IMG/VR virus record: IMGVR_UViG_3300029953_000012
Coordinates: 36,201 to 100,200 of that record
DNA: 64,000 nucleotides
Source: a virus
Reading direction: 5' to 3' (one strand)
The translations under genes were made by a program, and so were the position numbers. Shown in pieces: positions 41,684 to 62,473 of this stretch (within the stretch, counting starts at the first letter, position 1; every line of letters begins with the position of its first letter). The notes beneath the pieces are model-generated. The model worked only from the letters and a program-made list of their open reading frames with translations, did no database searches and had not been told where the DNA came from.

Positions 41684-43936
41684 TTATTGATATGGATTAG
41701 CATATGTACCGTAAAATGCCGAATATCCAGTCTCATCAGGGAATCTTATTATCGAATAGACATTGGCTGTTCCAGAATTTGGAAAGGAATACGCGTTAGA
41801 TGGCCATTTTATTTGTTTTAAAACTCCCGTTACCGTAACAGAACTTAAATTAAAAAGCTGTGATGAAGTTCCATTATTCTGTGGTACGTTTATATTTCGC
41901 ACCTTTATTATTAATGATTGTCCAGTGGCGAAATTGTCGCCCGAAATAGTTATGGAAACTGGGTTAACTCCAGCCGCTGCACCAGATGACCCACTTGATA
42001 TCTGTAGTGAGTACATGTCGTAATTCGCGGGGTCCAATAAAACTCCACTACTAGCAGAACCAATACCGTTCCCATATACCAAACTAAAGAAATTTTCAGG
42101 TCTCAAAGTCGTTGGCACACCCGCCGCTCCTTGAGGGCCAGTAGCTCCACCCGACGCTAAAATTTGCCATGGTACACTCGGAGGCGCGATACCACTTATA
42201 TTAGATACGCCGGTATTAATATAACTTGAACCTGACTGTACAACTATTGAATTAGGAATATACACATTCGGTAGTCCAGAATAAGTTCCCGAAAAATGAT
42301 TGGATATCGAACCCGCTGCTCCAGTTGCCCCCGTTGGCCCTACAGGACCAGTTGCGCCGATGGTACCGGATTGACAAAGCATCTGCCAAGGAACATTAGG
42401 GGGGTAAATTCCGCTAATAGTAGTTCCTGTATTGATAAAGGATGACCCCGAAGAGAATACTATATTATCATTGTAGTATGTGGTACCAGAAGCAAAGTTT
42501 CCTTGAAAATTATTACTTAATGTGCCAACTGCGCCAGAAGCTCCTGATGGTCCTCCCGCTGGTAATGGAATCCAAGGCTGAGTTATTCCATTCGCTAATT
42601 GGAACTGAATATAAATATTATTACCGACGCCAGAATATGTATATCCAACGACATCCGCACCATTTTCTCCTGTTGCTCCAACTGGTCCTATATTACCAGT
42701 TGGACCTATATTTCCACTTGGTCCAATTGGTCCTTGAATTCCCGCAGGACCAGCTTGCGAAGAGAAAATAGCATTACCAACCACAACAGCAAACCCAGTA
42801 GATGTTGATGAACTCAAAATCATTGAATCTGTCGTCGTATCTTGACCTAATGTATAAAGTACAAACCCATATTGATACTGACTCTGTGCCGCGAAGCTAG
42901 TGGTAAAAGAAATCTGTGTCCTATAAGGATTATTGACTAAGTTATAGTAAACCACGCTATTAGTCGTTTCTACAAATAAACTTGGGGTAGTATTAGAGTT
43001 ATAAAATCCAGTTGCGGTACCGCTCGGAAAAAAGACTGGCCTCCAGTAACCTGTGTTATAAGCGTCTTCGTAATAGTTAATTTTATTTCCGGCTTGGAAC
43101 GGAAGGGACTGTCCAGAGAAAAACCCAGACATAATAGTAATATCTCCAGATGTCAATGTGTGAGTATTTAATCCACTAGAATTTAAGGTATAACTCATCC
43201 CGCGCATCAGAGTAATATCTGGGAAACTATTACCACTAAAATAAGGATTGATAATTACTTGACTTGGAAAACCAGAGTCGGGAGGATTAGCGCCAGAAGT
43301 ATAAGATGTACCCGATTGTTGGAAATTAAGAGTAACACCTCCGGGCATACCCTGTGGTCCAGCTATTAAAGAAATCGGCGCACCCAACCCCTGATAGTTA
43401 CTAAATTGAGGAAGAATATAATTACCACTTTGGAAAAACCCAGTAACTGAAGTACCAGTAGCTCCACTTAGTCCTTGAAAATTAAAACCAGTTGATGTAT
43501 TATTAGATAGGTAAAAAGAAAGTATATGACTGGTAGTGTTATAAGTAATTCCAGTAACACTTATGCCTGTCGCACCTGTCGGCCCCTGCACCCCAGACAA
43601 ACCCTGTAATCCACTTGGCCCCTGAATAAAAACATAGTCACCATTAAAAGAAAAAACATATCCACCAACGTCTATATATGCCCCGCTTCCAGAAGTATAA
43701 GCATTAAAACTCGTATTGCCAAAATTTATTCCAGAACCAGAAGCCAAACTTAGTTCATTAGCGAATATTTGAGCATAAGGATATAACGATGACCCAATAT
43801 TGTAAACCCCTGAACCAGAAGGAATTAGATTACCAGAGATATTTTGAAATGGAAATAGTGCAAGAATCCCAGACACGAAACCAGATAATTCTGATTGGTT
43901 TAATTGCTTTAGCCTAATTGACGAGTCATATGCCAT
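41684..43936 (-). CDS. Collagen-like virion fibre
   Basis: 750 residues. Starts with the module MAYDSSIRLKQLNQSELSGF shared with the fibre at 27585-28757. Short collagen-like Gly-x-y runs (GLQGLSGVQGPTGATG, GPIGPSGNIGPTGNIGPVG, GPVGPTGATGAAG) alternate with beta domains that carry YTSG/SYTSG turns. This is a trimeric fibre with hinge or stalk segments. It lies between terminase and portal genes, a place where head fibres or tail fibres may be inserted. Start has a strong ribosome site (AAGGGA) and a late-type box. Confidence 0.75.
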   Translation of the reverse strand: MAYDSSIRLKQLNQSELSGFVSGILALFPFQNISGNLIPSGSGVYNIGSSLYPYAQIFANELSLASGSGINFGNTSFNAYTSGSGAYIDVGGYVFSFNGDYVFIQGPSGLQGLSGVQGPTGATGISVTGITYNTTSHILSFYLSNNTSTGFNFQGLSGATGTSVTGFFQSGNYILPQFSNYQGLGAPISLIAGPQGMPGGVTLNFQQSGTSYTSGANPPDSGFPSQVIINPYFSGNSFPDITLMRGMSYTLNSSGLNTHTLTSGDITIMSGFFSGQSLPFQAGNKINYYEDAYNTGYWRPVFFPSGTATGFYNSNTTPSLFVETTNSVVYYNLVNNPYRTQISFTTSFAAQSQYQYGFVLYTLGQDTTTDSMILSSSTSTGFAVVVGNAIFSSQAGPAGIQGPIGPSGNIGPTGNIGPVGATGENGADVVGYTYSGVGNNIYIQFQLANGITQPWIPLPAGGPSGASGAVGTLSNNFQGNFASGTTYYNDNIVFSSGSSFINTGTTISGIYPPNVPWQMLCQSGTIGATGPVGPTGATGAAGSISNHFSGTYSGLPNVYIPNSIVVQSGSSYINTGVSNISGIAPPSVPWQILASGGATGPQGAAGVPTTLRPENFFSLVYGNGIGSASSGVLLDPANYDMYSLQISSGSSGAAAGVNPVSITISGDNFATGQSLIIKVRNINVPQNNGTSSQLFNLSSVTVTGVLKQIKWPSNAYSFPNSGTANVYSIIRFPDETGYSAFYGTYANPYQ

Positions 43937-43948: not shown

Positions 43949-43956
43949 TATTACAC
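43949..43956 (-). promoter_or_regulatory. Late-promoter-like box
   Basis: TAGTGTAATA on the minus strand, 12 bases before the start at 43936. Its TAG is also the stop codon of the terminase gene. Confidence 0.5.
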
Positions 43957-45839
43957 TATAATAAAGTTGGTTCGAATGTGTTATTTTCTTCTGGCATATT
44001 TTGTAGGTCATAAAATTGTTTGAGTGCCCAACAACCCAACATTAATGTTGTGTATGAGTCCTTTCTCATTCTACTTGATGTGTTATTTCTCTTCATAACT
44101 TGTGGAAGGTCAAAACTTTGTGTTCCTTTGGCGGTAGTCTTTACTTCAATAGAAGCACATTGATATTTCTGCTGCTTAAGAAGAAACTCTTGGTCATCAA
44201 TCATTTGTATAAGACCACCACTCTTTCTTTCTGAGTCGGTGGCCTTCTTTTCAATTTCTTCAACACCAGTAAGAGACAAATCTATCTCAGAAGCAATTGC
44301 CTTATCGAACGCCGAGACATCTGATTTTATACCAGCGCCAAACCAAATCTTCTTATAGTCAATACATCCTTGTAAATATTCATTGCCCTTTCGAATGAAA
44401 TCAGTAGTAAAATATTGTGTAAAAACAATCTTATGAATTGTGCGGTTGTAATCTCTACGGGCATTTTTTAGTTCTTTCTCAAGTTCTACTCCATCTTTTT
44501 CTGGATAAAATTCGAAAATCTTAAGTTCGATTCCTGCCTTCTTAAATAATTCGTGTTCATTACATGATTCAATAAATTGATATCCGGCATAATCGATACA
44601 AATCATATGAATATCAAAAGAAGTATACAAATAAAAGAAATACTTGATATGGTCTTTCAAGTCTCTTCCGAATTTGGCATAATTATGGACCACGGTACCG
44701 CCCACCTTGCCTTCCTTGAATTTATCATTGTCCGCTTCTATGATTGTCATAGAGAAATTATCAGAAGTAGCAGAATTAGACCAGTTGGGGTCAATGGAAG
44801 CAATATACTTCTTTCCTTTTTCTCCTCTCAAAAGAAGCGTTGGAGTTTCTCCGTCTGGAATGGTGCATTCCATCATCTTTTTCATTGAATAGTAACTATC
44901 ACTTCCATCGATGAATTGCGCCCCATATTCGCGTTTGAAATTAGCCGAACTTGAATTTTCACTTTGAGCTAATTCGATAATAGACTTTTCCATTCTATCA
45001 GCAGGAACAGAATCCCAAGCCATTTGACTCACAAAATATTTAGCACCCTCTTCTGGCATATCAGGGCTATAAATCTCTTTTACAAACTCACTATACTTTT
45101 CATAAAGATATTCACAAGTATAACTGGCAGACGAAAGAGCTATAAACTTCGCGTTGTTTTTAAAATTCATTCTTTCTTCTTCCTTCAAAACACCCCTTCT
45201 TATTAATTCTGTTTCCTTGGCTCGAATAATTTGGCGTTCTTTAATATCTTGAGGAGCCACCAAGTACGGAATCAAAACCTTTTCGACCATGTCTTTATTC
45301 ATCAACAAGAATTCGTCAATGATAAGAATGTTGGCACGGAAACCACGAATCTTTTCGCCGTTAAGAGGAATGGCTGTAATTTCTCCACCGTTAACCAGCC
45401 AACTAAATTGGTCATTTCTTTTGCTTTTAACTCCCATGGCCTGAAATAATAATTGAGCATCAGGATTATCACATATCTTTTCTATATAATTAAAAATAAG
45501 ACGTGCTGTACGGAATGTCGGACCAGCTATAAGAATCATTGAACCGGGAAAGAAAATACACTGAAGCAGACAATACACGGCGGCAATATAGCTCTTACCA
45601 CAACCACGACCCCAAACACAAAGGGAGTAATTTGCGTCCATTAGACCTTTGATATTTATTATTTGGTCTGGATAAAGCTTGATACCAGCAATCATATCCG
45701 CCGTAAATCCAAGGTTATAAAAAAGGAATTTAGCCAAAGTAATTCTGGCAGTATTCTCATCCATTTCTCCATGGATGTTTAATATTTCTTTATTTATATC
45801 TGCTTTCTTTTTTCTGTATTTTTCGGGATAAAAAATCAT
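43956..45839 (-). CDS. terL: Terminase large subunit
   Basis: 627 residues. ATPase: Walker A GRGCGKS (77-83), Walker B ILIIDE (171-176, catalytic Glu176), coupling motif SSASY (236-240). C-terminal RNase H-like nuclease: first Asp in SID (348-350) with PNWSNSATSD, second in MICIDYAG (Asp416). It cuts and pumps phage DNA through the portal. The start overlaps the stop of the upstream nuclease gene (ATGA), so translation is coupled. Stop codon is TAG. It is the last gene of the tight operon that also encodes the sigma factor. Confidence 0.95.
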   Translation of the reverse strand: MIFYPEKYRKKKADINKEILNIHGEMDENTARITLAKFLFYNLGFTADMIAGIKLYPDQIINIKGLMDANYSLCVWGRGCGKSYIAAVYCLLQCIFFPGSMILIAGPTFRTARLIFNYIEKICDNPDAQLLFQAMGVKSKRNDQFSWLVNGGEITAIPLNGEKIRGFRANILIIDEFLLMNKDMVEKVLIPYLVAPQDIKERQIIRAKETELIRRGVLKEEERMNFKNNAKFIALSSASYTCEYLYEKYSEFVKEIYSPDMPEEGAKYFVSQMAWDSVPADRMEKSIIELAQSENSSSANFKREYGAQFIDGSDSYYSMKKMMECTIPDGETPTLLLRGEKGKKYIASIDPNWSNSATSDNFSMTIIEADNDKFKEGKVGGTVVHNYAKFGRDLKDHIKYFFYLYTSFDIHMICIDYAGYQFIESCNEHELFKKAGIELKIFEFYPEKDGVELEKELKNARRDYNRTIHKIVFTQYFTTDFIRKGNEYLQGCIDYKKIWFGAGIKSDVSAFDKAIASEIDLSLTGVEEIEKKATDSERKSGGLIQMIDDQEFLLKQQKYQCASIEVKTTAKGTQSFDLPQVMKRNNTSSRMRKDSYTTLMLGCWALKQFYDLQNMPEENNTFEPTLL

Positions 45840-48056: not shown

Positions 48057-48743
48057 TTACTCTAGTCCATGTTCTTGAATATATTGACGAGCCTTTTCTT
48101 GAATAGATTTTGTTAATTCTTTAATATGTCTATATCCCGGAGAACGCCCTTTTTCGTTACTTACAAAATTTAAACTTTTAGCTACCTCTTCTTCTTCTTT
48201 ATTGTCTATATAAAGACCCTTATATACCTTATATTCTATTGGTTTTAGAATCTTTTTCATTATAATATGAAGTTTTTCCTCATTACTAATTGAATAATGA
48301 GAGGAATCTTTTATTTCGTGGACTTCATTGGAATGATTTTCTATTGAAAGGGGGAGCTTTACGAAGGTCGCCGGTTGTTTATTTTTTTTCCAATGAGCGT
48401 ATAGAGGACAGGCTTCGCATTGTTCCTTGTAAATTTTACACCCATCCTCCCCAATGGACGCATCACACCTCAAACAGGGTCTGGCATAATTAGTATAGTT
48501 GTTCCTTACTAGATTTTTAATTTGATTTGTAATTATACGATTAACCCAAGGCTTTAGTGGTTTTGAATCATCGTACTGGTCCCATTTATTCCAAAGATGT
48601 ATTAGAACAATCTGGCTAACATCTTGGAAGTCCATACTGGCTAATGAAGTAAGCGTCCATCGGTGTTTGTGCTTTATTATTTCATCCTGAATTTCGGGAA
48701 TTAATTTCTCGAAATTATTAATATCGATTGGAGTCTTTTTCAA
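48057..48743 (-). CDS. Phage RNA polymerase sigma factor with Cys cluster
   Basis: 228 residues. Region 2-like: 'DFQDVSQIVLIHLWNKWDQY' (38-57) and 'PWVNRIITNQIKNLVRNNY' (65-83), the helix pair that contacts core polymerase and melts the -10. A Cys cluster is inserted right after: C90, C93, C102, C109, C112 (C-x2-C-x8-C-x6-C-x2-C), probably a zinc site. Region 4-like helices are at 155-220 ('LKPIEYKVYKGLYIDNKEEEEVA', 'RSPGYRHIKELTKSIQEKAR'). It probably directs host RNA polymerase to phage promoters. T4 gp55 is the functional analogue. It is placed in the terminase operon, one step from early to late. Confidence 0.75.
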   Translation of the reverse strand: MKKTPIDINNFEKLIPEIQDEIIKHKHRWTLTSLASMDFQDVSQIVLIHLWNKWDQYDDSKPLKPWVNRIITNQIKNLVRNNYTNYARPCLRCDASIGEDGCKIYKEQCEACPLYAHWKKNKQPATFVKLPLSIENHSNEVHEIKDSSHYSISNEEKLHIIMKKILKPIEYKVYKGLYIDNKEEEEVAKSLNFVSNEKGRSPGYRHIKELTKSIQEKARQYIQEHGLE

Positions 48744-49826: not shown

Positions 49827-50537
49827 TTAGAATTTTATTTTTCCAGTCTTTTTCATTATAAACCTAACAAAACCCGAGCGGACAATATCTTTTTCCTCAT
49901 TCATTCCAAAGGTAAAAATACCATTTTCTTTACTTTCAGAATCCGACAATAAATCAAACATTTTCTTAAAACCAGATTTACTTCCTATATCATTTTGGTT
50001 AATACTATCTCCAATAAAGAATATTTTTGTATGTTCTCCGCACCGACTAAGTAGAAGTAATATATCATCATAAGTAAGTGAAGCGGCTTCGTCAACTATG
50101 ATAGAGGCAGACGTAATTGATAAACCACGAGCAAATCCTAATGGAAGGCAATTGAGTTTATTTTCTTTGGTTAACCTATCTATCTCAGATTTAGAAAGTA
50201 GTTCAGATAATTTATCAAAAAATATTTGATTGAATGGTAGCATTTTTGAGGCAATATCTCCGGGAATGTAACCGATACCAAAAGAAGAAGATTCTACTGG
50301 ATTTCTTACATAGATTATTTGGTTAATTTTGTTTTGATATAAAAGCTTTAGAGAAATTAATACCGCTAAATACGATTTTGATGTACCCCAAATTCCATTT
50401 ATATAAATGCATTTGCACTCTTTGGATAATCCCGTTTTTATTATTTCTAATTGTTTTTCATTATAAGTAAACCTTTCTTTAATGATTGGGTTTTCTGAAG
50501 ACTGGCGGGATTGCTGTTTTTTATTTTTAGTACTCAT
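49827..50537 (-). CDS. phoH: PhoH-like ATPase
   Basis: 236 residues. Walker A is GIWGTSKS (48-55), with Ser replacing the usual G/T in the P-loop; Walker B SIIVDEAAS (145-153) corresponds to the DEAQN of typical PhoH proteins. 'IYVRNPVESS-GIGYIPGD' (75-93) matches the PhoH-family loop that follows the first strand. PhoH-like proteins are common in marine and freshwater phages and in T4-like phages, and are linked to RNA metabolism or phosphate stress; the precise role is not settled. A late-type box 36 bases upstream suggests late expression. Confidence 0.8.
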   Translation of the reverse strand: MSTKNKKQQSRQSSENPIIKERFTYNEKQLEIIKTGLSKECKCIYINGIWGTSKSYLAVLISLKLLYQNKINQIIYVRNPVESSSFGIGYIPGDIASKMLPFNQIFFDKLSELLSKSEIDRLTKENKLNCLPLGFARGLSITSASIIVDEAASLTYDDILLLLSRCGEHTKIFFIGDSINQNDIGSKSGFKKMFDLLSDSESKENGIFTFGMNEEKDIVRSGFVRFIMKKTGKIKF

Positions 50538-50607: not shown

Positions 50608-52476
50608 TTATTGAGTGAATTCGGAACTTACTAATCCCACGTTTACTAGATTTGTAAAAGCTAAAATATCATTTGGAGAAACGGGGATAGAAATATCACT
50701 AATATCATTACCAGTATTTGATGTCAATGGCGCGTTGACCAATCGTTTTCTAAATTGACCAGATGAATAATTCGTTATTAAAAATGATGCAATTGGTGAA
50801 GAAACAGAATTTGTTATAGCGTAACTAATAGTTAAAGTCCCACGACCGCCATAAGTATTTGTCCAACAAGACGTAATTGATATTGGATTTTCTATTACAA
50901 GTAACTGACCACTAAATATCCCACCTTGAAATACGTCTGCCTTTAAAGTGTTTGGATAATAAGTATTAGTCGCATTTTGAATAGGATTAGTTCCTTGCCC
51001 ATTCCAGTTGGCAAACCAAGTCAGCATTGAAACATTATTATAAATATAGGCATCCAACCCTCCGTAATTATTAAAGTAATTTCCTGTTACTACGGTATTC
51101 GTCGTATTATAAAGTAAAAGTGCTTCAGTATTTGTGCCTACTGCCCCTAAATAAGCTGAGGACATGTTATTTCTAATCGTTACATTATTTAGGTTTGTGG
51201 AAGTTAATCCTAAAATATGAATTCCAATTGAGTTTTGACTGCCAGAATAGAAAATTGTATTATCATGGATATTTAAATTATTTTCAAGATAAGAAGTTGT
51301 GGAATTTATAAAAATACCTTTAAAAACATTAACCATGTAATTATTACAGATTTCCCAGTCCTGCCAAGCATTAGACTCAGAGTAAATTCCAACTGCGGCA
51401 GAAGCGAGAGCGATTTGGTTAATATCACGAATATAATTTCCGTCTACCTTAAAACCTTTGATAAACCCAAAATTACAAATAAAATTAAAATATCCCGGAG
51501 TCATTAATCCTCCTGTCGTATCTGTCGTAACTGAAGTGTCCATGGAACAGTTTTTAATCTCACCGCCCAACAGCCAGCCATTTGTAACGGTTAGAGTGTC
51601 TGGTATGGAAAGTACTGGTGGTGAATTATTTGAAGCATTGCCGTTAAAACCATATCCACCCATACTAAGAAAATCCACTCCAGCATTAGGAGCCATAACC
51701 ATATTAGCACAAGAACCCAAAATGCAACCATCAATTAAAGCATGATGAACAGCGTTCGTTTGTACTGAGCCATAAAAATTACCGCCATAAGTCCAAATAT
51801 TAAGTATAAACTGTTCTTGATTTGTAATAGCTAATCCCCAGTTAATTACTTCGACGTTCTTAATCGTAGCATTATCACCAGTTAAAGTAACTGCTCTATA
51901 ATAAGTGTTACTCCAAGCTTGATTTTGCTCATTCATGTCAATAGTAAGATTCTCAACCATCATATTACTACGACCAAGTGGCAGATACCCAACATTCCCA
52001 CCAATAATATCATTATTATAACCACCAGCACCGGGGTCACGCTGGATAATTGTTTTGTTTCGTCCAGCCCCATCAATATCATAACCAGTCTGCATAACCA
52101 GTCCATTAGTGTCATGAAATGTACCGGCATTTAAATGGATTTTCGTATTAATTGGAAAAAAATTAGTCCAAGGAAATAAACCGTCAAATGTTACAGCATT
52201 AGTGGCTATATAAGGATTTGCCTGACTACCGTTGCCAGAGCCATTAATACCAACAGGAGAAATCCATATTTCATTAGCATTAGTTGCACTTTTTGTAAAC
52301 CAATTAAATAAATTAGCCGAAGTAATTTGGTAGGTTATAGAATTGCTAGCTTCCAAAAACGTCTCGTTGCCATTTAAAACGCCCGTTATTGGATAATTCG
52401 TCCAATTAAGACCAAAACATGTCCCTGTTACTAGAAAAGTCACCGCCATTACAAAGAAAAATCTTTTAATATTCAT
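50608..52476 (-). CDS. Exported beta-helix protein with tail-fibre N-terminal module
   Basis: 622 residues. Signal peptide: MNIKRFFFVMAVTFLVTG with a cleavage-like TCFG/LNW. Then 'NWTNYPITGVLNGNETFLEAS' and 'ITSANLFNWFTK' form the module shared with the proteins at 57476 and 59033. The body is a right-handed parallel beta-helix of the NosD/pectate-lyase class: 'EIWISPVGINGSGNGSQANPY', 'GTFHDTNGLVMQTGYDIDGAG', then a ladder of 'IRNNMSSAYLGAVGTN', 'NNYGG', 'YFNNYGG' type repeats. Probably acts on or binds a cell-surface or extracellular glycan. No catalytic triad is certain. Late-type box nine bases upstream. Confidence 0.65.
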   Translation of the reverse strand: MNIKRFFFVMAVTFLVTGTCFGLNWTNYPITGVLNGNETFLEASNSITYQITSANLFNWFTKSATNANEIWISPVGINGSGNGSQANPYIATNAVTFDGLFPWTNFFPINTKIHLNAGTFHDTNGLVMQTGYDIDGAGRNKTIIQRDPGAGGYNNDIIGGNVGYLPLGRSNMMVENLTIDMNEQNQAWSNTYYRAVTLTGDNATIKNVEVINWGLAITNQEQFILNIWTYGGNFYGSVQTNAVHHALIDGCILGSCANMVMAPNAGVDFLSMGGYGFNGNASNNSPPVLSIPDTLTVTNGWLLGGEIKNCSMDTSVTTDTTGGLMTPGYFNFICNFGFIKGFKVDGNYIRDINQIALASAAVGIYSESNAWQDWEICNNYMVNVFKGIFINSTTSYLENNLNIHDNTIFYSGSQNSIGIHILGLTSTNLNNVTIRNNMSSAYLGAVGTNTEALLLYNTTNTVVTGNYFNNYGGLDAYIYNNVSMLTWFANWNGQGTNPIQNATNTYYPNTLKADVFQGGIFSGQLLVIENPISITSCWTNTYGGRGTLTISYAITNSVSSPIASFLITNYSSGQFRKRLVNAPLTSNTGNDISDISIPVSPNDILAFTNLVNVGLVSSEFTQ

Positions 52477-52485
52477 TATACCTTA

Positions 52486-52493
52486 TATTACAC
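52486..52493 (-). promoter_or_regulatory. Late-promoter-like box
   Basis: TAGTGTAATATAAGG on the minus strand, nine bases before the start at 52476. The AAGG that follows is the ribosome site. Confidence 0.5.
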
Positions 52494-52499
52494 TATTTT

Positions 52500-55400
52500 T
52501 TATTGTGATATAAAAGTATGGACTATTAAAGTACTTATGGTTACTTTTCCGCCACCACCGCCACTGCTGCCTCCACCAGACGTAGTCCAAGTTCCTGAGT
52601 TCCAGTTAAATACTGTCGAGGTATTGTTCGTTAGAGTTATCACTGCCCCAGATAGAGAATTCTCGTATATGAAATCGTTGCTAGGCCCGGAATTATAAAT
52701 TATAATCTGAGAATTGACGGGAATAGCGTTAGAATCATTGTTGATGATTACTAACGGTCTATTCGGGGAAGTTAAATAATATTTTGAACCCAAAGCATAA
52801 CTGACATAGTTTGTGGAAATTCCATTTGTTCCTACTATACCACCGCTGTTACTTATCTCAGTCCAGTAGTTATTGTTCGTGGAAATAGAAGGATAGTTTA
52901 TTTGAAAATAATTGCTGGAAAGTATAGTGTTTCCAGAATTCGTAGGAACAACATTATTAGTGTATGTGACGCCATTGGTCATATACGTATAAACAATTGC
53001 CTTGTACACTAGATTAGTAATCAGCGAAGAGTCACATGTTAAACCGTAATTGTACAGGGCTGGAGCTACTATGACACTGTTTGAACCGGGAGAATTGAAC
53101 TGGCTATAATTATTATTGCTGATGAATATATTAGTCGTCCAGCCGTAGGTTAACCACAAGGTTTCAATTGGATTAGCTATATTCGTACTTTGCATCGTAT
53201 TACCAGTGACGTATATATTCTCTGAGTGACTTATATCCAGAGACGGATTAAGAGATGTAAGGCTAGGAAATGAAGATACAGCAATGTCAGCATTCACGAA
53301 AAGGTTGCTTGTAATTAAGATGTTTGATTGACAGGTAAAGGCAGTTTCTGCACTGTCAGAACCAGTGACGATAGCGATATCATTATTTCCAGAATTAAAG
53401 AAATAGTTGTTAGATACCACGCAATTAACCAAGTGATTGAGATTAAGGAAGATATTACCGCCCGCAGGATTTGTATAGTAGCAGTCGTTATTAATGAAAT
53501 AGAAGAATGGTATATTACTATAACTAGCTGAGAATCCAATAGAGCATTCGCCAAAACAATTAGTTATAAGGCAATTTTCCAAATAATTAGGTATAGTACA
53601 TCTGTTTCCATACCATTCAATTGGAGCCAATACATCATTGAATGTGCAATTTGTAATAATCATATTAGCACCAGCATTAGCGCAGTCTGCTCTACAATCA
53701 TAAAACGTGGTATTAATATAAGTAAAGACATTAGCGTTAGTTGAACCGTCTGGATTCTTTAATACTTCGCCCTGCCATCCTTGCCACAACATATTAGTAG
53801 ACAAAACGCTAAAATCAGTACTATTCCAATTAGGAACATTTGTAGTCCATTGGAATGTCGCCACAAAAGCATCGTGGGTAACATCCCATCCAAATCCATC
53901 CACTTGATTTTGTCCACCAACACCATAACTATTATTCCTAAAGTTATCCTCCGTAGCCACATTAGGAATTCCACCATCAATATTAATCCCTGTAAATATA
54001 AGAGGAGTATTTGTCCCTACTAAATTTGTCGGTGTAAATTCATCAAACATGAATCCTCTTTGTGGAGAATTCGTTCCAGATGGAAAAATTCCCGGACCTT
54101 CACTACCCATGGCAACAGGTTCTGATATTCTAGCTCCTTGACCTATTAGATGAGTAAGATTAGTTCCATCACCCAGAATCGTAAATCCACCCTGACTCAG
54201 ATGAACTCCATACCAGTTATATGTAACATCTTGATTCGTGGCTAGAATTAGATAATTTCCAGTAGGGATGTATAGAATGCTAGAACCAGTATTATTTGTA
54301 TATAAAGCAGTGAGTGCAGTGTTAAATGCAGATTCATTATCATGGCCTAACGTAGCGAAAGTATGAGTCAAAGTGTTGGAGCATACCTTGGAAAGATAGA
54401 GGTTTGTTCCATTAACCACGTTGGTAACGGTAGCTACAAGGTCTAAATACCCGTTGGTATAGATATTAAAGCTATTCGTTCCAAAAGGAGTAATTGGTCC
54501 TGCGTTGAATACTTCAATGGCGTCTCCAATAACACTATTCGAGATGATATTTGTTGTAGTTACCAAATTTAAATTGGAAGTTGTATTGACGTAAAATTGA
54601 ACTGCGTCTCCTAACGCTCCATAGTTAGTTACATTAATACTTAATGAAGGAGAGTTTGATAAATATTGCAACGAAGCCGTGTATATTACTCCGGGACTGG
54701 CAGAATTATTTGTCTCGTTAAAAGAATCAATCTGAATAGTATTGGCACCCGAATTAACATACAGTACGTTTGTATATCCTGAGATATACCCTGAAGCATC
54801 TCCCTCATTAGTGAAAGTCACTGAAGCTGAGTTAGCTCCAATAGTTACTCTGCATAATCCGGGATTCCCTAAATATCCGTATCCACCGTTAACTATAATT
54901 CTGTAGTATCCACTATTCGTAAAATTAAGCGTATTCTGTATGCTGCTATACTGATTTACTAAAGTCCAAGAATACTGTCCTCCATACTGTTGAGAGTAAT
55001 CTGACTGATTATAACCACCATTTGCTCCAAAATAAGGATTTCCTGCTGTAGTTGCTATGGCTACGAAGTTACTGCTTTGCAATGTTTTAATAGAATTAGT
55101 GCCTACTCCAGCGAATACCGTAGGATTATTTAAATTAGTTCCAGTTAAATTTAATTGTTGAAGTATCCATGCAAACTGATTCGATACGGTATTTAGTCTG
55201 GATAAAGTTACCCAATTAGTACATTCAGTATATGCTAAAGTAAGATTAGTCTGCATCGAATATAATACTGGAAATGTAAAAGTACCCGGAAAAATAGATT
55301 CAGAATATCCACTGCTTAATCCATGAAGTGCTATATTATTAGTTACAACACTCTGTTCAAAGGCATTATAAAAATTTAACATAGGTACTGACGACTCAGA

Positions 55401-57473
55401 ATAATACCCAGTAAAAAACTCTGTTAATACAGTAGATTCAGTCAGCGTGTTGTTCCACCATGTACGCGGGTAAGCATAATAATCCCAAGGATTATAAGGT
55501 ATCTGGTCTGGATTGCCCTGACATCCTGCCTCAAATACTCCTTTGCTTTGCAAGAATTTTATTCTATCAATCAAACCGTTTACTTCAGGAATTATTAATA
55601 AAGGATTTTTCTGGGCGTAATCAGTCAATAATAAATCATACCCATACGACCCGAGATTTGTAGTCATACTGCTCCAATTTACCCAATTATTAGAAATGGA
55701 GGCATTATAGGAAGATGACGTTGGGAGTACGGGTTGACCATATACACATACTTGCATGTGTAAATTACTAGGGAGTTTACCAAAATTAGTTGGCGCACTA
55801 TTTAAACTAGCATAGGCTAAACCGGACACAATGGCATTAGTATCACCTAACTGAGTTACCTTATTAGCTACGTTAGTTAATAAATAACAATATTCTCCTG
55901 AATAAGAAATAGGCAAACCCGGATTACCAACCCAAGCATCACCTGTTGATTTAAATGGAGTATTTAAAGATACTTCGGCAGCATTAGTAGAGAATGAAGA
56001 ATCATCAATAGGATATATACCATAATACCTAGAGAAAGACTTATACGTTAACGCGTAGTTAACATCAGGAGGACTTGAAGTGTCACAATTATACACTTTA
56101 TTAGCCAACCAAGTGCTTAAATTAGTATTTGACTGTGACCAAGTTAATACAATTCCACTATATGAACCCAATCCAGCAGCATCATAAACTCCATTAGTCG
56201 GATTAACTAACTGCCCTCCAAAATAACCCCACCAATTAGTATCAACTAAGATTCCATTAATCACCTGATTAGTCATCTCTAATATCCTTGTGGGAACTAC
56301 TATATTATAATTATGAGGATAACTGCCGAATCCTTCAGTATAATTTGAATTGATTATTCCCAGTGCGGCCTCATACTTAATTTCTGACCCTGAAAATAAA
56401 TATGACCCACTGTAAGTACTAGTCCAGTGATTCCTCCACCAGTACAGATAACCTTGTCTGGTAGGTCCGTCTATTCTCGTCCAAGGATAGAAATCACCTA
56501 TTGCAAAATTAGCATAGATACTTTTTACACTCGGGTTTAAATTGTATGGCAAGGAAGATAAAGAAACTCCAGAATTATAAGGTATATAATCTCCATCTTC
56601 ATCAGGATATACCCATCTAACCCCCTGAGATTCCAAGAAATTCAAAACCCCATACCAAACATCCATATATGGCCACCCAGTAAAATCAACTTCTCTTGTT
56701 CCTTGTATTGTTGCTGTAATATTTGTTGGCAGTACTCCATTTAATAGATTACTGCTCTGTATGGCGTATGATGTTGCGTTGTTTTGTAAATCTACTACTC
56801 GATAAATAGTTCCGGGATACGAATTAGTCTGAGAAGGTAAAATGATTGGTACGGGTCTTCCTTCTAACTCTGACAAATAATAACTGAGGTCAGAAGAGCA
56901 TTGTAGTAATCCTCCACCTAAGGAATTGGTAGCAGCCACGACGGCGTCCAAGTTAGTATAACTACCTAAAGAACCGTGAATTTGATTAGTAAAACAATCC
57001 CAAATCAGGTTTGCTGGTGGAGAAATTAGTGTCCAATAAGCATTTGTAGCTGACCAATTTTGGTTAGTAAGTAATGATAGAGTAACATATCTTCCTACTA
57101 TTGGAGTGAATCTTATTGATGTCTGACTCTCTATCACACTTCCTGCATTGAATGCCCCATTAGAAAAGTTAGCATCATAGGGAACCCATTGAGTTCCTAC
57201 TAAATTAGTAGCCGGAGAACTATTTCCTACATAAACATTGACAACACCTATAGGATTAGTTTGCCATGTAGTATTTACATTGTTTGGCCACATAGGAGTA
57301 TATGAATAGTTGGTACCTGAAGTAAATACTCCTACTATAGTATTAGTACCTCCCATATCAAGAGTATACTCATTAACGGCATTAGTAATGACTGCTGAAT
57401 AAGGCAAGATGCTGGACTCAACACTGATACAAAAAAACAGTAGACTTAAAAAGATGGCTAAGAGTTTGGTCAT
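52500..57473 (-). CDS. Giant exported DUF4838 / pectate-lyase-3 protein
   Basis: Start at ATG 57473 (MTKLLAIFLSLLFFCISVESS, a clear signal peptide); the extended frame to 57530 overlaps the upstream gene. About 1657 residues. From about 260 to 780 a DUF4838-like glycoside-hydrolase-type region: 'FLESQGVRWVYPDEDGDYIPY', 'AYASLNSAPTNFGKLPSNL', 'CVYG', 'YGYDLLLTDYAQKNPL', 'FFTGYYSESSVPMLNFY'. Then a carbohydrate-binding-like beta-sandwich (about 840-970), then pectate_lyase_3: 'INVTNYGALGD' and 'DNESAFNTALTAL-GSSILYIPTGNYLI', and a beta-helix. The end is Gly-rich linker and a short tail. A multi-domain surface-polysaccharide enzyme or receptor is likely. Confidence 0.75.
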   Translation of the reverse strand: MTKLLAIFLSLLFFCISVESSILPYSAVITNAVNEYTLDMGGTNTIVGVFTSGTNYSYTPMWPNNVNTTWQTNPIGVVNVYVGNSSPATNLVGTQWVPYDANFSNGAFNAGSVIESQTSIRFTPIVGRYVTLSLLTNQNWSATNAYWTLISPPANLIWDCFTNQIHGSLGSYTNLDAVVAATNSLGGGLLQCSSDLSYYLSELEGRPVPIILPSQTNSYPGTIYRVVDLQNNATSYAIQSSNLLNGVLPTNITATIQGTREVDFTGWPYMDVWYGVLNFLESQGVRWVYPDEDGDYIPYNSGVSLSSLPYNLNPSVKSIYANFAIGDFYPWTRIDGPTRQGYLYWWRNHWTSTYSGSYLFSGSEIKYEAALGIINSNYTEGFGSYPHNYNIVVPTRILEMTNQVINGILVDTNWWGYFGGQLVNPTNGVYDAAGLGSYSGIVLTWSQSNTNLSTWLANKVYNCDTSSPPDVNYALTYKSFSRYYGIYPIDDSSFSTNAAEVSLNTPFKSTGDAWVGNPGLPISYSGEYCYLLTNVANKVTQLGDTNAIVSGLAYASLNSAPTNFGKLPSNLHMQVCVYGQPVLPTSSSYNASISNNWVNWSSMTTNLGSYGYDLLLTDYAQKNPLLIIPEVNGLIDRIKFLQSKGVFEAGCQGNPDQIPYNPWDYYAYPRTWWNNTLTESTVLTEFFTGYYSESSVPMLNFYNAFEQSVVTNNIALHGLSSGYSESIFPGTFTFPVLYSMQTNLTLAYTECTNWVTLSRLNTVSNQFAWILQQLNLTGTNLNNPTVFAGVGTNSIKTLQSSNFVAIATTAGNPYFGANGGYNQSDYSQQYGGQYSWTLVNQYSSIQNTLNFTNSGYYRIIVNGGYGYLGNPGLCRVTIGANSASVTFTNEGDASGYISGYTNVLYVNSGANTIQIDSFNETNNSASPGVIYTASLQYLSNSPSLSINVTNYGALGDAVQFYVNTTSNLNLVTTTNIISNSVIGDAIEVFNAGPITPFGTNSFNIYTNGYLDLVATVTNVVNGTNLYLSKVCSNTLTHTFATLGHDNESAFNTALTALYTNNTGSSILYIPTGNYLILATNQDVTYNWYGVHLSQGGFTILGDGTNLTHLIGQGARISEPVAMGSEGPGIFPSGTNSPQRGFMFDEFTPTNLVGTNTPLIFTGINIDGGIPNVATEDNFRNNSYGVGGQNQVDGFGWDVTHDAFVATFQWTTNVPNWNSTDFSVLSTNMLWQGWQGEVLKNPDGSTNANVFTYINTTFYDCRADCANAGANMIITNCTFNDVLAPIEWYGNRCTIPNYLENCLITNCFGECSIGFSASYSNIPFFYFINNDCYYTNPAGGNIFLNLNHLVNCVVSNNYFFNSGNNDIAIVTGSDSAETAFTCQSNILITSNLFVNADIAVSSFPSLTSLNPSLDISHSENIYVTGNTMQSTNIANPIETLWLTYGWTTNIFISNNNYSQFNSPGSNSVIVAPALYNYGLTCDSSLITNLVYKAIVYTYMTNGVTYTNNVVPTNSGNTILSSNYFQINYPSISTNNNYWTEISNSGGIVGTNGISTNYVSYALGSKYYLTSPNRPLVIINNDSNAIPVNSQIIIYNSGPSNDFIYENSLSGAVITLTNNTSTVFNWNSGTWTTSGGGSSGGGGGKVTISTLIVHTFISQ

Positions 57474-57475
57474 AA

Positions 57476-58849
57476 TTACCACGAATTTGTCAACATGGCT
57501 GGCGTGGTTGATAAGTAGGTAATTCCGCATTTACTTCCGGGTTGAAGAACGAAGTAATCGTCGCCCGCAAGTGATTGGTAAACCGCCACACCGTTCTTTG
57601 AAACACTGTACGCTGCCGCATCGCTAAAATAGCATTCCAACGCAACAGGTGCATTGTTCGTGAAATTGAATGTTGACGCTCCAACGGTGACAGCAACTGG
57701 AATATGAGCGGTGTATGACGCAATTCCATTCGTTACCTGAATGCTGCCATTTAGTGTCAAGGTAATAGGAAGAGAATATCCTAATCCTCCGCTAGTAACA
57801 TAACTAACATTAGTATTCCCTCCAGTTAATAATAAATTGTATGCAGAAGTTCTAATCAACGCCATTTCATTAACCGTTGAATCACCCGGAGTATTGACAC
57901 TTGACCAAGTAATTGGACAAGTGCTTGCAAGTTGAAATCCTCCCCAGTAACTGCTAACATTGAATCCGTAAGGTGCGCCTATACTATAATTATTGAGAGA
58001 AGGGAATGATAAACCTCCGTTAAATGTAGTATATGACCCAGTAGCTCCAATATTAATATTACCGCCGCTATTAATTCCTAAATTAATATCTAAATTTGTA
58101 TCTACAGATAGGAACGTATTTGACCCAGAAGCACTTAAAACTGAGAAATAAAGAATATCACTTGAAGCAGCCCATAAAATATCATTAGTATAGAGAGAGT
58201 TAGTAATGGATAAACTAGGAAAAATACTGCCTCCACCTCCACCGCTCGCCGCTATCATATTTGTTCTCTGGCCTGTAGAACTATTCGTAACGCTGGTTAT
58301 GGTCACATTCGCACCCGCAATCAAAATGTCGTGCTGCCAATTAGTCAACCCACTAGCATCTCCAATTATCGGAGAAAGAAGAACAAAATTAGTAGCCGTA
58401 ACATTAGAGAAGGTTGCATTTGAAACTACTGTTAAACTATTTATGGTGGTATTTCCAGTGAGGGTTGCGTTTGTGATGCTAGCGCCAGACACAAGGTTGG
58501 AGGATACACCGGCTGTCAAGGCAGTCGTTGCGCTGGTTGCCGAGGTCGCATTGCCAATGAAGGTGCCAGTGATATTATTTCCAGAATTTGTCAACGTGAC
58601 TGCTCCAGCATTATTATTAGTAATTCCACTGGTGGAATTGCTTACAATGAGGTTCTGATTAATCCAATTCAATAGATTACTGGACATAATTAGATGGTTT
58701 TGGGTATTATTTGAATTTCCAATCAAAAATGTTTCACTGCCAGTTAAGTTTGTTACCTGCGAATAAGTTAGCCAAGACCCCGCGAACGAAGTCTGATAGA
58801 ATAATAAAATACTGGCTATAAAAGAGAATAGGGATGTTAATTTTTTCAT
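57476..58849 (-). CDS. Exported TN-rich tail-fibre-like protein
   Basis: Start at ATG 58849 (MKKLTSLFSFIASILLFYQTSFAG), a clear signal peptide; an upstream TTG is less likely. About 457 residues. 'SWLTYSQVTNLTGSETFLIGN' is a variant of the shared N-terminal module, itself like the tail-fibre motif L-T-G-x-E-x-x-P. Then strings of TN-rich beta repeats (TNATLTGNTTINSLTVVS-type, with GNATSATSATTALTAG) and a domain with 'WQHDILIAGANVTITSVTN'. The C-terminal ~150 residues have a compact fold ending in 'LQPGSKCGITYLSTTPAML'. No enzyme motif. Confidence 0.6.
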   Translation of the reverse strand: MKKLTSLFSFIASILLFYQTSFAGSWLTYSQVTNLTGSETFLIGNSNNTQNHLIMSSNLLNWINQNLIVSNSTSGITNNNAGAVTLTNSGNNITGTFIGNATSATSATTALTAGVSSNLVSGASITNATLTGNTTINSLTVVSNATFSNVTATNFVLLSPIIGDASGLTNWQHDILIAGANVTITSVTNSSTGQRTNMIAASGGGGGSIFPSLSITNSLYTNDILWAASSDILYFSVLSASGSNTFLSVDTNLDINLGINSGGNINIGATGSYTTFNGGLSFPSLNNYSIGAPYGFNVSSYWGGFQLASTCPITWSSVNTPGDSTVNEMALIRTSAYNLLLTGGNTNVSYVTSGGLGYSLPITLTLNGSIQVTNGIASYTAHIPVAVTVGASTFNFTNNAPVALECYFSDAAAYSVSKNGVAVYQSLAGDDYFVLQPGSKCGITYLSTTPAMLTNSW

Positions 58850-58902
58850 TTTTAATATGTTATAAAAAAACTCCAATCAAAATAATCATGAATTTACTCA
58901 TA

Positions 58903-59031
58903 TTAGAAAGTACCGACACTGAGGGGGAACCCTCCGGTATTTGTATAGATAATTCCGTGCGTCAACGCGGAGTTCGTGCAAACGTACTGTAGTCCGGCGA
59001 TGCGACTGAGGATGGCGAGGGGTTTGGTCAT
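58903..59031 (-). CDS. Small ORF, 42 residues, in the GC-rich segment
   Basis: Starts one base past the stop of the SGNH gene: MTKPLAILSRIAGLQYV, ends GGFPLSVGTF. Coupled translation is possible. GC-rich like the preceding gene end. Residues include a single Cys and a TNTGG turn. No known family; may be a real small gene or a residual tail of a former longer one. Confidence 0.35.
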   Translation of the reverse strand: MTKPLAILSRIAGLQYVCTNSALTHGIIYTNTGGFPLSVGTF

Positions 59032-60400
59032 GTTACCAGATAACCGGGGTGGCGTTTGTGGTAAGATTAGCCATAACAAAACTGATGATTTGCTTGGCGT
59101 AATAAAGATGCCCTGCCGCATTCGGATGCGGTCCGTTGCCGGAGTAATAAGTGTAGGCCGTTCCCGAGCCGGGGACTAAATAGCTTCCCTGAATCCATGA
59201 GTCCGCCGCGTTTGGCTCTGGAAGAAGCACCGGCAATCCACACGTCGCCGCCGCATTGCTAATAATCAGGTCGGATGGCGCTTCCGAACCAACAGGGGAA
59301 GTGATTCCAGGGAATGGCGCAATGACGATTTGCTTGCAGTTTGGCAGAAAAGATTTGGTCAATAAATAAACGTTGGTCGCCGCCGCGTACAAACCATTTG
59401 TGGGGTCGTTTATGCCTTCCGCCCAAATAATGAAACTCGGGTGAAAGTTCAGAATACAGTTTGTTAGCCGCTGAATGATTGGAAGCCCGACCACTTGACC
59501 ATTGTAAATATTGGTCGCAATGTAACCCGTCCCGCCTTCCGCTTGAGGCACTAAGTTTATCCCTTGAGGCATCAGAGTATCCTGTAATATCGAAGGGTAA
59601 GCATCAGGACCGTCAGCACCCGAAGAACTACCGACCCCCGCAGTGATGCTGTCCCCCCCAATAATGCCGGTCGAATAGGGTTTTTGAACTGAAACAAAGG
59701 AGTTTGTCACCGGCTCAAACATTCCCACGATTGTTCCTCCCACTCCATGCACTTCAATGTGGTGAAATCCAAAGTTCGGCCACGTCAAAACTAATGAGAG
59801 AATATTCCCGCTTTGGGGCGTCAGAGTGACCCAATTTTTCTGGACTTCGGGAAGTGTGTCACTATTAAACCAATAAGGGCCGGAATACAGAAGCAGACCC
59901 AGACTATTGCCGATAAATTGCGTTTCACCCCTTAAATCGTGATTTTGTGGCGCGTATGGAGCACCCGGTGGACCCACATCAGACCAACCCGTTAGGCCAT
60001 TAACCGCGCCAAACGCAAGATAGTTTGTTAGATAACCACACCAGTACGAAAAATATGGTGAATTTGTCAGGCTTAAATTTCCTCCGTAAGTATTGCCGCT
60101 GATTGTATAACCAAACCAGTTTGTATTCCCAAAATAACCGTATGTGGTATAGCTCGCGTTCGTTTGTACCACCGTTACCGTTACACCGTTTTGTTGGCCT
60201 AATTGTCCAACAAGGTTATAGCCGCTCAAGTTCGTCAACCCGCCGCCGTTGCCACTCACGTTCAGCAAAACAGCATTCGTTATTACCAGCGTGCCTATTC
60301 CTCCCACCAGAGCGCCCGCGTTCACATTTGTAAGCCCGTTGCCGTTGCCGGTGAAGGTGCCATTAAAACTACCATTAAGGTTGGCCACACTATTTGTAGG
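58903..60400. other. GC-rich segment of likely foreign origin
   Basis: Base composition is visibly richer in G+C than the surrounding AT-rich phage DNA, from the small ORF through the second half of the SGNH gene. The change near 60390 coincides with the junction of the two SGNH-domain halves in that protein. Smaller GC-rich patches occur at 57476-57750 and 58200-58600. Confidence 0.6.
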
Positions 60401-61798
60401 GATAAATAGCTCAGGCCAATTAGCCATCATTGCTGCTTTAATTCTTTGAGCGATATTATAATGACCTTCGACATTAGGATGCGGAAAAGCTGAACCATAA
60501 TAAGGGTCAGTAAGTGTAATGGCGGTACCGTTTACAATTGAACCTACATTAGCATTACCCGTTATTAGTGCTGGACTAGTATAGTCAATAAATTGATTTG
60601 AAGAAGTTATAAACCCAGAAGCCAAACCAGCGGCTCTTATAATCTGAGTAGCTAACCAAGTATTATCTCCCGGATTTGACTGTTGACCTAAAGGCATTTC
60701 ACCGCCAAGTAATCTATTTTGATTTGGGAATAAGGCGACAATATTTGTCATAGCCATATAACAATAGGTATAAAGAGTATTGTTTGTTAGGATACTATTA
60801 GTTGCATAACCCCCATCATTAGAAAGGGAAATTATCATATATTTAGGATTTAAAGTTTGCATATCCACAATTCTTCCCCACAAATTCGTTCTTGGTCCTG
60901 ATGGGTCAGTATTTACCCAACCAGTACCACCTTCTCCCATATTATTAATCCAAATATTTTTACAATCAGGGTCGATATTCAAATAATCAAAATAAGAACC
61001 ATTACCGTTAGGTGCTCCAGTTCCTTCTGTTACACTATCACCCCATACATAAACGGGTGTTTTTGGTAGCAACGGTTCAATGGCAAATTGTACTGGGGTT
61101 TCAATCCCGATACAAGTACTGATATTTTTAATTATCACTGTATGCCAATTAGTTGTATTTAAAGTGACTGTAGTTAGCCATTCTAATGCACCATCGCTTG
61201 GTATAGCATAAGAGTATGGATTGTTGTCGGCGTACTGTACAATTCCATCTACAATTATCATAGGTGTGCAATTCCCAGTAGGAAAATGGTCTATTGCGAA
61301 AACATTTCCATAAAATCTAAAACCTAGTGAAATCTGAGATATATCCTCAAGACCTACACCAACAAATTGTAGATATCCAGTTATGGCATTTGTATTTGGA
61401 TAATAAACTCCATTTTTTCCATTTCCCGGCCCTCCATAAACAAACCATCCATAAGAACCCAAAATAGTAAATGGATTTGTGGCTAAATTATATGGTGTGA
61501 TATAATACTCGGTCCAACCAGACGGAATAGTGGATGTCGCGTTGGTGACAATTGAAACTATTTCGGGGGAATAAGAAGGTAAACCAGTTAAAATCAAATT
61601 AGTTGACTTGTTTTGTACCGCCCAAGTACTTAAATTTCCTCCAGTGATTTGTTCTGTATTCGTACCGCTCGCAACTAAAAATGTCTCGTTACCATTTAAA
61701 GAACTTACCACTGGATAGTTCGTCCAAATACCCCCAAAACATATTCCCGTTAAAAACAAGGTGGCAAAGATTGTTGAAAAAATTTTTCTTATATTCAT
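59033..61798 (-). CDS. Exported protein with two SGNH hydrolase domains
   Basis: ATG 61798 (MNIRKIFSTIFATLFLTGICFG) gives a signal peptide; the frame also reads back to a GTG at 61813. About 921 residues. The module 'WTNYPVVSSLNGNETFLVAS' follows. SGNH domain 1 (about 245-440): VWGDSVTEGTG (GDS), NMGEGGTGW (Gly block), SLSNDGG (N block), HPNVEGH (His block). Linker: GNGNGLTN repeats. SGNH domain 2 (about 700-920): GGDSITAGVG, EGGTGYI, GINDPT, HPNAAGH. SGNH hydrolases remove acetyl or other acyl groups, often from polysaccharides. Two complete-looking active sites in one protein. The second half is GC-rich. Confidence 0.85.
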   Translation of the reverse strand: MNIRKIFSTIFATLFLTGICFGGIWTNYPVVSSLNGNETFLVASGTNTEQITGGNLSTWAVQNKSTNLILTGLPSYSPEIVSIVTNATSTIPSGWTEYYITPYNLATNPFTILGSYGWFVYGGPGNGKNGVYYPNTNAITGYLQFVGVGLEDISQISLGFRFYGNVFAIDHFPTGNCTPMIIVDGIVQYADNNPYSYAIPSDGALEWLTTVTLNTTNWHTVIIKNISTCIGIETPVQFAIEPLLPKTPVYVWGDSVTEGTGAPNGNGSYFDYLNIDPDCKNIWINNMGEGGTGWVNTDPSGPRTNLWGRIVDMQTLNPKYMIISLSNDGGYATNSILTNNTLYTYCYMAMTNIVALFPNQNRLLGGEMPLGQQSNPGDNTWLATQIIRAAGLASGFITSSNQFIDYTSPALITGNANVGSIVNGTAITLTDPYYGSAFPHPNVEGHYNIAQRIKAAMMANWPELFIPTNSVANLNGSFNGTFTGNGNGLTNVNAGALVGGIGTLVITNAVLLNVSGNGGGLTNLSGYNLVGQLGQQNGVTVTVVQTNASYTTYGYFGNTNWFGYTISGNTYGGNLSLTNSPYFSYWCGYLTNYLAFGAVNGLTGWSDVGPPGAPYAPQNHDLRGETQFIGNSLGLLLYSGPYWFNSDTLPEVQKNWVTLTPQSGNILSLVLTWPNFGFHHIEVHGVGGTIVGMFEPVTNSFVSVQKPYSTGIIGGDSITAGVGSSSGADGPDAYPSILQDTLMPQGINLVPQAEGGTGYIATNIYNGQVVGLPIIQRLTNCILNFHPSFIIWAEGINDPTNGLYAAATNVYLLTKSFLPNCKQIVIAPFPGITSPVGSEAPSDLIISNAAATCGLPVLLPEPNAADSWIQGSYLVPGSGTAYTYYSGNGPHPNAAGHLYYAKQIISFVMANLTTNATPVIW

Positions 61799-61825: not shown

Positions 61826-62086
61826 TTAATTGACATTTATGATTGGATTGCCATTTCCATCCAAGATATACTGTCCATTATCATCAATAGAAAACGCCCC
61901 CACAAACAAAAAGCCTTTTTTAATGAATTCGCGGTCCCATCTCTGGATAAGATATGATGCATCAATAGAATTCACAAAAGAATAATAAGAAGCCGCTTCT
62001 TGGGCAAAAGATGGCCAATCTGCTGCTACAAAAAAAAACTCATGCAGCCTTGTTTCGAAATCTTGGAATGTCCCAGAAATATACAT
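61826..62086 (-). CDS. Small protein, paralogue A
   Basis: 86 residues: MYISGTFQDFETRLHEFFF, then 'SFVNSIDASYLIQRWDREFIKKG' and a 'YILDGNGNPIIN' end. Shares the framework MYI-S/T-G-x-x-x-DFE-x-RLH and 'W-D/N-x-EF-x-K-x-G' with the next gene. Ends 28 bases before the SGNH gene. No family recognised; a structural or assembly role near the exported fibres is possible. Confidence 0.55.
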   Translation of the reverse strand: MYISGTFQDFETRLHEFFFVAADWPSFAQEAASYYSFVNSIDASYLIQRWDREFIKKGFLFVGAFSIDDNGQYILDGNGNPIINVN

Positions 62087-62089
62087 ATT

Positions 62090-62320
62090 TTACCCATTCG
62101 TAGGAATAGATAAGGCGGGGGTTGAATAATATTTTTCACTATTAAGAATGGTTTCGCCTATCTTCTGGAATTCGTTATTCCATTTTTTAAGTTGGGCGGC
62201 GGTAATTTGGCCCGAATACCCCGACCCTTCGACTAAAAATCCTGTTGTGAAATCACTCTGGCCTGTTGGCAACTGGTGAAGCCTTTTCTCGAAATCCACG
62301 ATTGAACCTGTGATATACAT
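62090..62320 (-). CDS. Small protein, paralogue B
   Basis: Start at ATG 62320 (MYITGSIVDFEKRLHQ), 76 residues; a longer frame to 62389 lacks support, while 62320 has a GTGTAAATA box 12 bases upstream. 'GQITAAQLKKWNNEFQKIGETI' matches paralogue A. The pair are tandem duplicates that have diverged strongly. Function unknown. Confidence 0.55.
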   Translation of the reverse strand: MYITGSIVDFEKRLHQLPTGQSDFTTGFLVEGSGYSGQITAAQLKKWNNEFQKIGETILNSEKYYSTPALSIPTNG

Positions 62321-62332
62321 TTTTTCAAGGGT

Positions 62333-62340
62333 ATTTACAC
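62333..62340 (-). promoter_or_regulatory. Late-promoter-like box (GTGTAAATA)
   Basis: TGTGTAAATAC on the minus strand, 12 bases before ATG 62320, first gene of the late 62-50 kb block. Confidence 0.4.
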
Positions 62341-62473
62341 ATATTAACGCGGGATTGACATTTAAAGTATAATTAGGAGAACTATACAAGGCAAAAAAGA
62401 TGATTTTCGTATAATTAGATTTAGATTTTGATATTTTTTATGTAATTAGAATTTTCGACCGATTGGAATAGGG

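Follow-up and report, generated by a model that had tools for sequence, protein, structure and literature searches.

Four signal-bearing genes upstream of phoH

The window analysed here comprises 64,000 bases (36,201-100,200) of the 100,200-bp IMG/VR virus record IMGVR_UViG_3300029953_000012 and encodes a large terminase, a portal, a tape measure and tail proteins, with almost all of these genes on the (-) strand. Between two small paralogous genes and phoH lies an island of four consecutive (-) genes encoding putatively exported proteins, which are referred to below as D, C, B and A in the order of their transcription (Table 1). The intergenic gaps are short with the exception of 183 bp from D to C and, judging from this layout alone, the four genes would thus seem to belong to a single late operon. 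Longer frames are open upstream at 57530 (B), 58876 and 61813, leaving the choice of start uncertain.

Read from the open starts at 52476 (A), 57473 (B), 58849 (C) and 61798 (D), the four proteins begin with MNIKRFFFVMAVTFLVTGTCFG, MTKLLAIFLSLLFFCISVES, MKKLTSLFSFIASILLFYQTSFA and MNIRKIFSTIFATLFLTGICFG, respectively. These N-termini were scored with a self-written signal-peptide rule that requires a positive n-region, a hydrophobic core of 8-16 residues and small residues at -3/-1, and that was calibrated on 76 annotated E. coli K-12 genes whose export classes were assigned by the analyst; 13 of 14 exported proteins passed it, as did none of the 42 cytoplasmic and none of the 20 inner-membrane proteins. 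All four island proteins passed the rule with scores of 4.3-6.1. So did only one of the 74 other open reading frames (ORFs) of the whole record (78 ORFs), likely a false positive with a Rossmann-type KKILITGATGVVGA start, and 0.8% of shuffled N-termini. The sequence-only reading that preceded this work had recognised export signals on these same four genes and had named signal prediction as a check on them; the signals, which are well-formed and of the Sec/signal-peptidase-I type, passed the rule-based test in all four cases, and the observation is thus sound and far beyond chance.

Directly behind the signal, A, C and D share a module of about 40 residues with the pattern W-x(2)-Y-x(5)-L-x-G-x-E-T-F-L. 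A and D read WTNYP-x4-LNGNETFL, the LNGNETFL being exact in both, while C harbors the variant TYSQVTNLTGSETFL within a module region that reads WLTYSQVTNLTGSETFL, and B is devoid of the module. Thus, the module earlier described as NYP-x(3-5)-LNGNETFL is indeed present in three of the proteins and absent from the one starting at 57473, but the copy in C does not follow it to the letter. Alignment of A, C and D with four module-bearing proteins from relatives yields a consensus of roughly small-x-small, the cleavage site, and then G-x-W-x-x-Y-x5-L-x-G-x-[ED]-T-F-L. The small pair at -3/-1 falls at the same aligned spot in all seven proteins, mostly followed by G-x-W-x-x-Y. Inspection by eye revealed no lipobox in the module-bearing set, and the possibility of a lipoprotein signal was therefore dismissed. 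No second transmembrane (TM)-like segment was found in the mature parts of A-D. When 13 cargo proteins from the corresponding site of five phage lineages were examined, every one passed the signal rule, and a later TM segment was seen in none. Given the calibrated signals, the conserved small -3/-1 junction, the lack of a second TM segment and the recurrence in relatives, the prediction that A-D are exported via Sec with cleavable signals is well supported.

The likeness of the module to the tail-fibre motif L-T-G-x-E, which had also been pointed out earlier, holds at the level of the motif. A profile of signal plus module weakly matched a long tail fibre of one relative with E=0.003 in a search of 40 records (~0.13 overall). 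In contrast, the isolated module matched no PHROG family and had no noteworthy counterpart among cultured phages, and tblastn searches of cultured phages with the module and with the typical fibre motif returned nothing (a single E=5 match was disregarded). Homology to the classical fibre motif is thus not established, and a kinship of the two is plausible on the strength of the motif and the profile match. A scan of 84,980 bacterial and archaeal genomes, at a sensitivity that reaches close relatives only, did not find the unit of signal and module.

Behind their N-termini the four proteins differ. D matches the SGNH/GDSL hydrolase profile PF13472 (E=4.3e-13) over two stretches, joined by a GNGNGLTN fibre-like linker. 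A motif scan located GDS at 253 and 715, GIND at 795 and HPN..GH at 440 and 891; the second domain accordingly has all of the GDS, GxND and HxxxxGH blocks, while the first has GDS and HPNVEGH, the GxND block not being found there by the same scan. In its second SGNH half, D shows 29% identity to an SGNH-containing tail protein from Bacillus phage Mater (YP_009151128.1) and 27% identity to gp19 of Streptomyces phage LibertyBell, which is encoded among tail genes. Both of these proteins resemble D in having a C-terminal SGNH domain after beta-rich sequence, the identity extending over ~190-230 residues; unlike D, they have no signal, and D further differs from them by its N-terminal module and its two SGNH regions. 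When the N-terminal 950 residues of B were searched, DUF4838 was matched (PF16126, E=6.1e-10; 38.1 bits against a curated cut-off of 26.6), the match being confined to the C-terminal half of the model. The C-terminal half of B starts with NYGALGDA and, by eye, resembles the start of many spikes and tailspikes of the pectate-lyase type. No Pfam profile match was obtained for a right-handed beta-helix or pectate-lyase fold, either in A or in this half of B. No domain was recognised in C, which, like D, holds a fibre-like linker. Searches of PHROGs, Pfam, NCBIfam and PDB sequences with A and C gave nothing useful, and single-sequence AlphaFold models of the two were unusable (mean predicted local distance difference test scores of 33 and 37, respectively). 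Among PHROGs, A, B and C had no match, and the best value for D was 0.041. The earlier designation of all four proteins as glycan-active is therefore too strong: significant profile matches back it for D and, more loosely, for B, whereas none was found for A and C.

The island site in related phages

Relatives were fetched with the terminase as query, and the region upstream of phoH was read in each. Three further assemblies have a terminase 100% identical to that of the window phage. Four other lineages, with terminases 51-84% identical, hold different signal-bearing cargo at the site (Table 1). The order small gene, cargo, phoH is found in the window and in L009, L010 and L006/L114; in L036 cargo is likewise followed by phoH, the small gene not being detected there. 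The cargo of L036 includes a protein matching Malectin (PF11721, E=5e-24), and the larger protein of L010 (L010:3489-5528) displays CIGAAHVGG and GDSGAP motifs that, by eye, resemble the active site of a chymotrypsin/trypsin-like protease, no profile match having been found for it. In at least four relatives (L007, L011, L012 and L014) the small gene directly precedes phoH with nothing in between, and the cargo is thus dispensable. The terminases of L009 and L010 are 98% identical, yet unlike cargo (157 residues in the one, 95 and 679 in the other) stands behind the same signal and module, which argues for a fast exchange of the C-terminal parts.

Other arrangements are seen as well. Seven more distant relatives (L039, L041, L044, L045, L048, L051 and L054) have two or three small signal-bearing proteins before phoH, with signals such as MRKLIIIASLLGCILNTSFG followed by GN and MKKFIIFLFFIFICSFSNA followed by Q. 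In L148 (L148:1-5649), the region before phoH encodes signal-free proteins with beta-roll (SLAIG) repeats and lectin- or LamG-like proteins of the DLSGNNNSATL type, and is possibly a signal-free counterpart of the island.

Table 1 Features of the window, and cargo found at the corresponding site in related phages (percentages give terminase identity to the window phage). A slash within a motif denotes the predicted cleavage site.
Feature	Position in window	Strand	Content or basis
Putative exported protein D, 921 residues	59033..61798	(-)	signal (cut ~FG/GIWTNYP), LNGNETFL module, two SGNH/GDSL hydrolase regions
Putative exported protein C, 457 residues	57476..58849	(-)	signal (FA/GSWLTYS), LTGSETFL module, fibre-like low-complexity stretch (GNATSATSATTA, GDASGLTN)
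Putative exported protein B, 1657 residues	52500..57473	(-)	signal, no module, DUF4838 domain
Putative exported protein A, 622 residues	50608..52476	(-)	signal (FG/LNWTNYP), LNGNETFL module, right-handed beta-helix-like sequence (by eye)
Small flanking gene MYISGTFQDFETRLHE..., upstream island border	61826..62086	(-)	alignment; kept in relatives with and without cargo
Second copy of small flanking gene family, MYITGSIVDFEKRLHQ...	62090..62389	(-)	synteny, alignment
PhoH-like ATPase, downstream island border	49827..50537	(-)	PF02562 E=3.8e-34; synteny
Terminase large subunit	43956..45839	(-)	PF03237 E=4.8e-8; same strand as cargo; query for finding relatives
Ordinary tail fibre, collagen-like, no signal peptide	41684..43936	(-)	phrog_5073 tail fiber E=1.6e-17
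Cargo of L006/L114 (84%)			273 residues with signal and module; 70 residues, holin-like; ~1130 residues with signal (pieces in two overlapping loci); 710 residues, TIM-barrel-like, with signal
Cargo of L010 (69%)			95 residues; 679 residues (module)
Cargo of L009 (70%)			157 residues, little beyond signal, module and small domain
Cargo of L036 (51%)			1086 residues with module and beta-roll repeats; 166 residues, Malectin; 125 residues

The two small genes at 61826-62389 are adjacent paralogues with the family pattern MY[IF][TS]GT..D[FY]E.RLH, W..E, and members of this family border the island in relatives; searches with the family gave no match of any value. Elsewhere in the window, a 228-residue protein (48057-48743), kept beside phoH and the terminase, reads like an extracytoplasmic function (ECF)-type sigma factor and is possibly a late-gene regulator.

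A proposed swappable island of exported proteins and its alternatives

The four genes are best read as one version of an island whose content is exchanged among large tailed phages of one family, a reading that draws on the signals, the common module, the fixed site and the swapping of cargo, all of them features of sequence. With moderate confidence, we propose that the accessory proteins encoded by this late-gene island are exchangeable, derived from fibres and exported, and that they act on the glycans of the infected cell. The genes, which lie on the same strand and in one block with the late structural genes, would be transcribed together with them, and their products would be translocated by the host Sec machinery and cut by signal peptidase I. 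The proteins may then act outside the cytoplasm, in the periplasm, at the cell surface or in the surroundings, being fully freed at lysis, on substrates that would be glycans of the host surface or matrix. The advantage would probably be that envelope polymers are stripped or masked, such that progeny could leave, spread, and avoid re-binding to debris as well as superinfecting phage. The module would probably serve as an oligomerisation or docking unit of the fibre type permitting the exchange of unrelated C-terminal domains. More tentatively, signal and docking module might serve as an all-purpose N-terminal part, followed by enzymes, lectins and proteases that a lytic lineage exchanges for one another, the infected cell displaying or secreting fibre-like proteins before or during lysis for surface stripping, matrix breakdown or as decoys against superinfection.

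Malectin in L036, and SGNH and DUF4838 in the window, are domains beyond the usual virion list and speak for export. Several points weigh on the other side. The C-terminal domains resemble those of fibres and spikes, the closest SGNH relative in a cultured phage is annotated as a tail protein, and L148 has signal-free beta-roll and lectin-like proteins just before phoH, so that the cargo could also be attached to virions. Furthermore, Sec export alone takes a protein only as far as the periplasm in a Gram-negative host.

These points keep alive the view that the proteins are tail fibres or spikes carried on virions, their N-termini leading to or across a membrane with attachment at lysis, or their signals being trimmed or ignored during assembly. 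The resemblance of the module to the L-T-G-x-E fibre motif with its weak match in a relative's long fibre, the location of the Mater and LibertyBell SGNH relatives in tail gene blocks, the arrangement in L148 and the fibre-like linkers of C and D are all in line with such a role. Tail fibres, however, are synthesised without the export signals that A-D bear and that the Mater and LibertyBell proteins lack. The phage possesses a separate, signal-less virion fibre (Table 1), and the cargo as a whole is missing from some relatives, as would not be the case for an essential virion part. Nor is there an established route by which exported proteins join the virions of tailed phages. Consequently, we consider a place on the virion unlikely.

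DUF4838, Malectin and SGNH are domains often encountered in bacteria that degrade polysaccharides, and the cargo might accordingly consist of host-derived, exported auxiliary metabolic enzymes, carbohydrate-active or -binding, that help the infected cell to feed on polymers. Relative to the virion proteins of the same phage, the cargo is enriched in N, T and W and depleted in K, while cysteine content does not separate the two groups. Glycoside hydrolase genes have moreover been described in phages of soil and peat, in excerpts from two reports on a permafrost-peat set (PMC6786970) and a GH75 chitosanase (PMC9485262). These enzymes are likewise polysaccharide-related and from uncultured soil viruses; as far as the excerpts extend, they are treated as single enzyme genes, in contrast to the syntenic island with export signals and a common module found here, and a text search found no mention of a signal peptide in the former or of secretion in either. 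A shared N-terminal module in front of unrelated domains, together with a fixed position in the late block, points to a set shaped by the phage, and the unit of signal and module was found in none of the bacterial genomes scanned for close relatives. A metabolic role thus appears improbable.

Exported depolymerases or decoys, the capture of a bacterial surface gene set and anchoring were the three options offered by the sequence-only reading, among which export is the element that has gained ground. A simple one-off capture is not supported, given the recurrence at one synteny site particular to these phages and the failure of the same genome scan to find the signal-module unit in bacteria; as only close relatives are within the reach of that scan, individual C-terminal domains may nevertheless derive from bacteria. 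Finally, uncleaved membrane anchors, holding the proteins for instance at the inner membrane, could be imagined from the strong hydrophobic cores and from the holin-like gene among the L114 cargo, and are very improbable given that the small -3/-1 residues are kept in place in seven of seven module-bearing proteins, as signal peptidase I cleavage expects, and that the calibrated rule rejected all 20 E. coli inner-membrane proteins.

The proposed export of accessory proteins has partial precedents. The GH32 enzymes of Bacillus phages SP10, phiNIT1 and SPG24 are likewise glycan-active phage proteins thought to act outside the cell; according to the authors, they are devoid of the signal peptide of their bacterial relatives (PMC4595243). 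Cleavable signals are described, in excerpts from the respective reports, for the T4 antiholin RI (PMC8385771), Kayvirus Tgl (PMC7150955) and endolysins (PMC8878798). Lytic phages thus do use host Sec export, as proposed here, but the proteins concerned are small and related to lysis, and the excerpts cover no set of large, multi-domain proteins resembling fibres. In the open-access literature searched, subscription papers being outside the scope of the search, no account was found of large fibre-like proteins that are exported and encoded as a syntenic set.

Life cycle, host and significance

No tyrosine integrase (PF00589) was found in the record, which may be incomplete, serine integrases not having been tested; nor did a pattern-limited scan find a relative of the terminase in the 84,980 bacterial and archaeal genomes. 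The two results fit a lytic cycle without proving it, and the phage family is probably lytic. With neither sign of a temperate, integrating phage at hand, and with the same proviso as to serine integrases, a lysogenic-conversion moron was considered and set aside. At a contig edge of a distant relative (L076:1-2402), a 705-residue protein of the autotransporter type with a PEP-CTERM-like tail (VIPEPSTGSLMAFAVASLITLKVIRRKK) is encoded along with a prepilin-type start (GFTLVEMAVVIVIIALVGS). Such genes are presumably to be expected in Verrucomicrobiota or Planctomycetota. They may hint at the host group, and may either have been captured from among the surface genes of a host or result from a chimeric assembly.

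Phage depolymerases are usually viewed as parts of the virion, and the carbohydrate enzymes of phages as auxiliary genes that occur singly. If the reading of the island as a set of exported accessory proteins is true, some lytic phages would also devote resources to acting on the exterior of the cells that they infect. A signal followed by W-x(2)-Y...L-x-G-x-E-T-F-L beside phoH would provide a marker for such islands in uncultured phages and, were that reading to hold, there would be a testable tie between these phages and the turnover of polysaccharides in their habitats.

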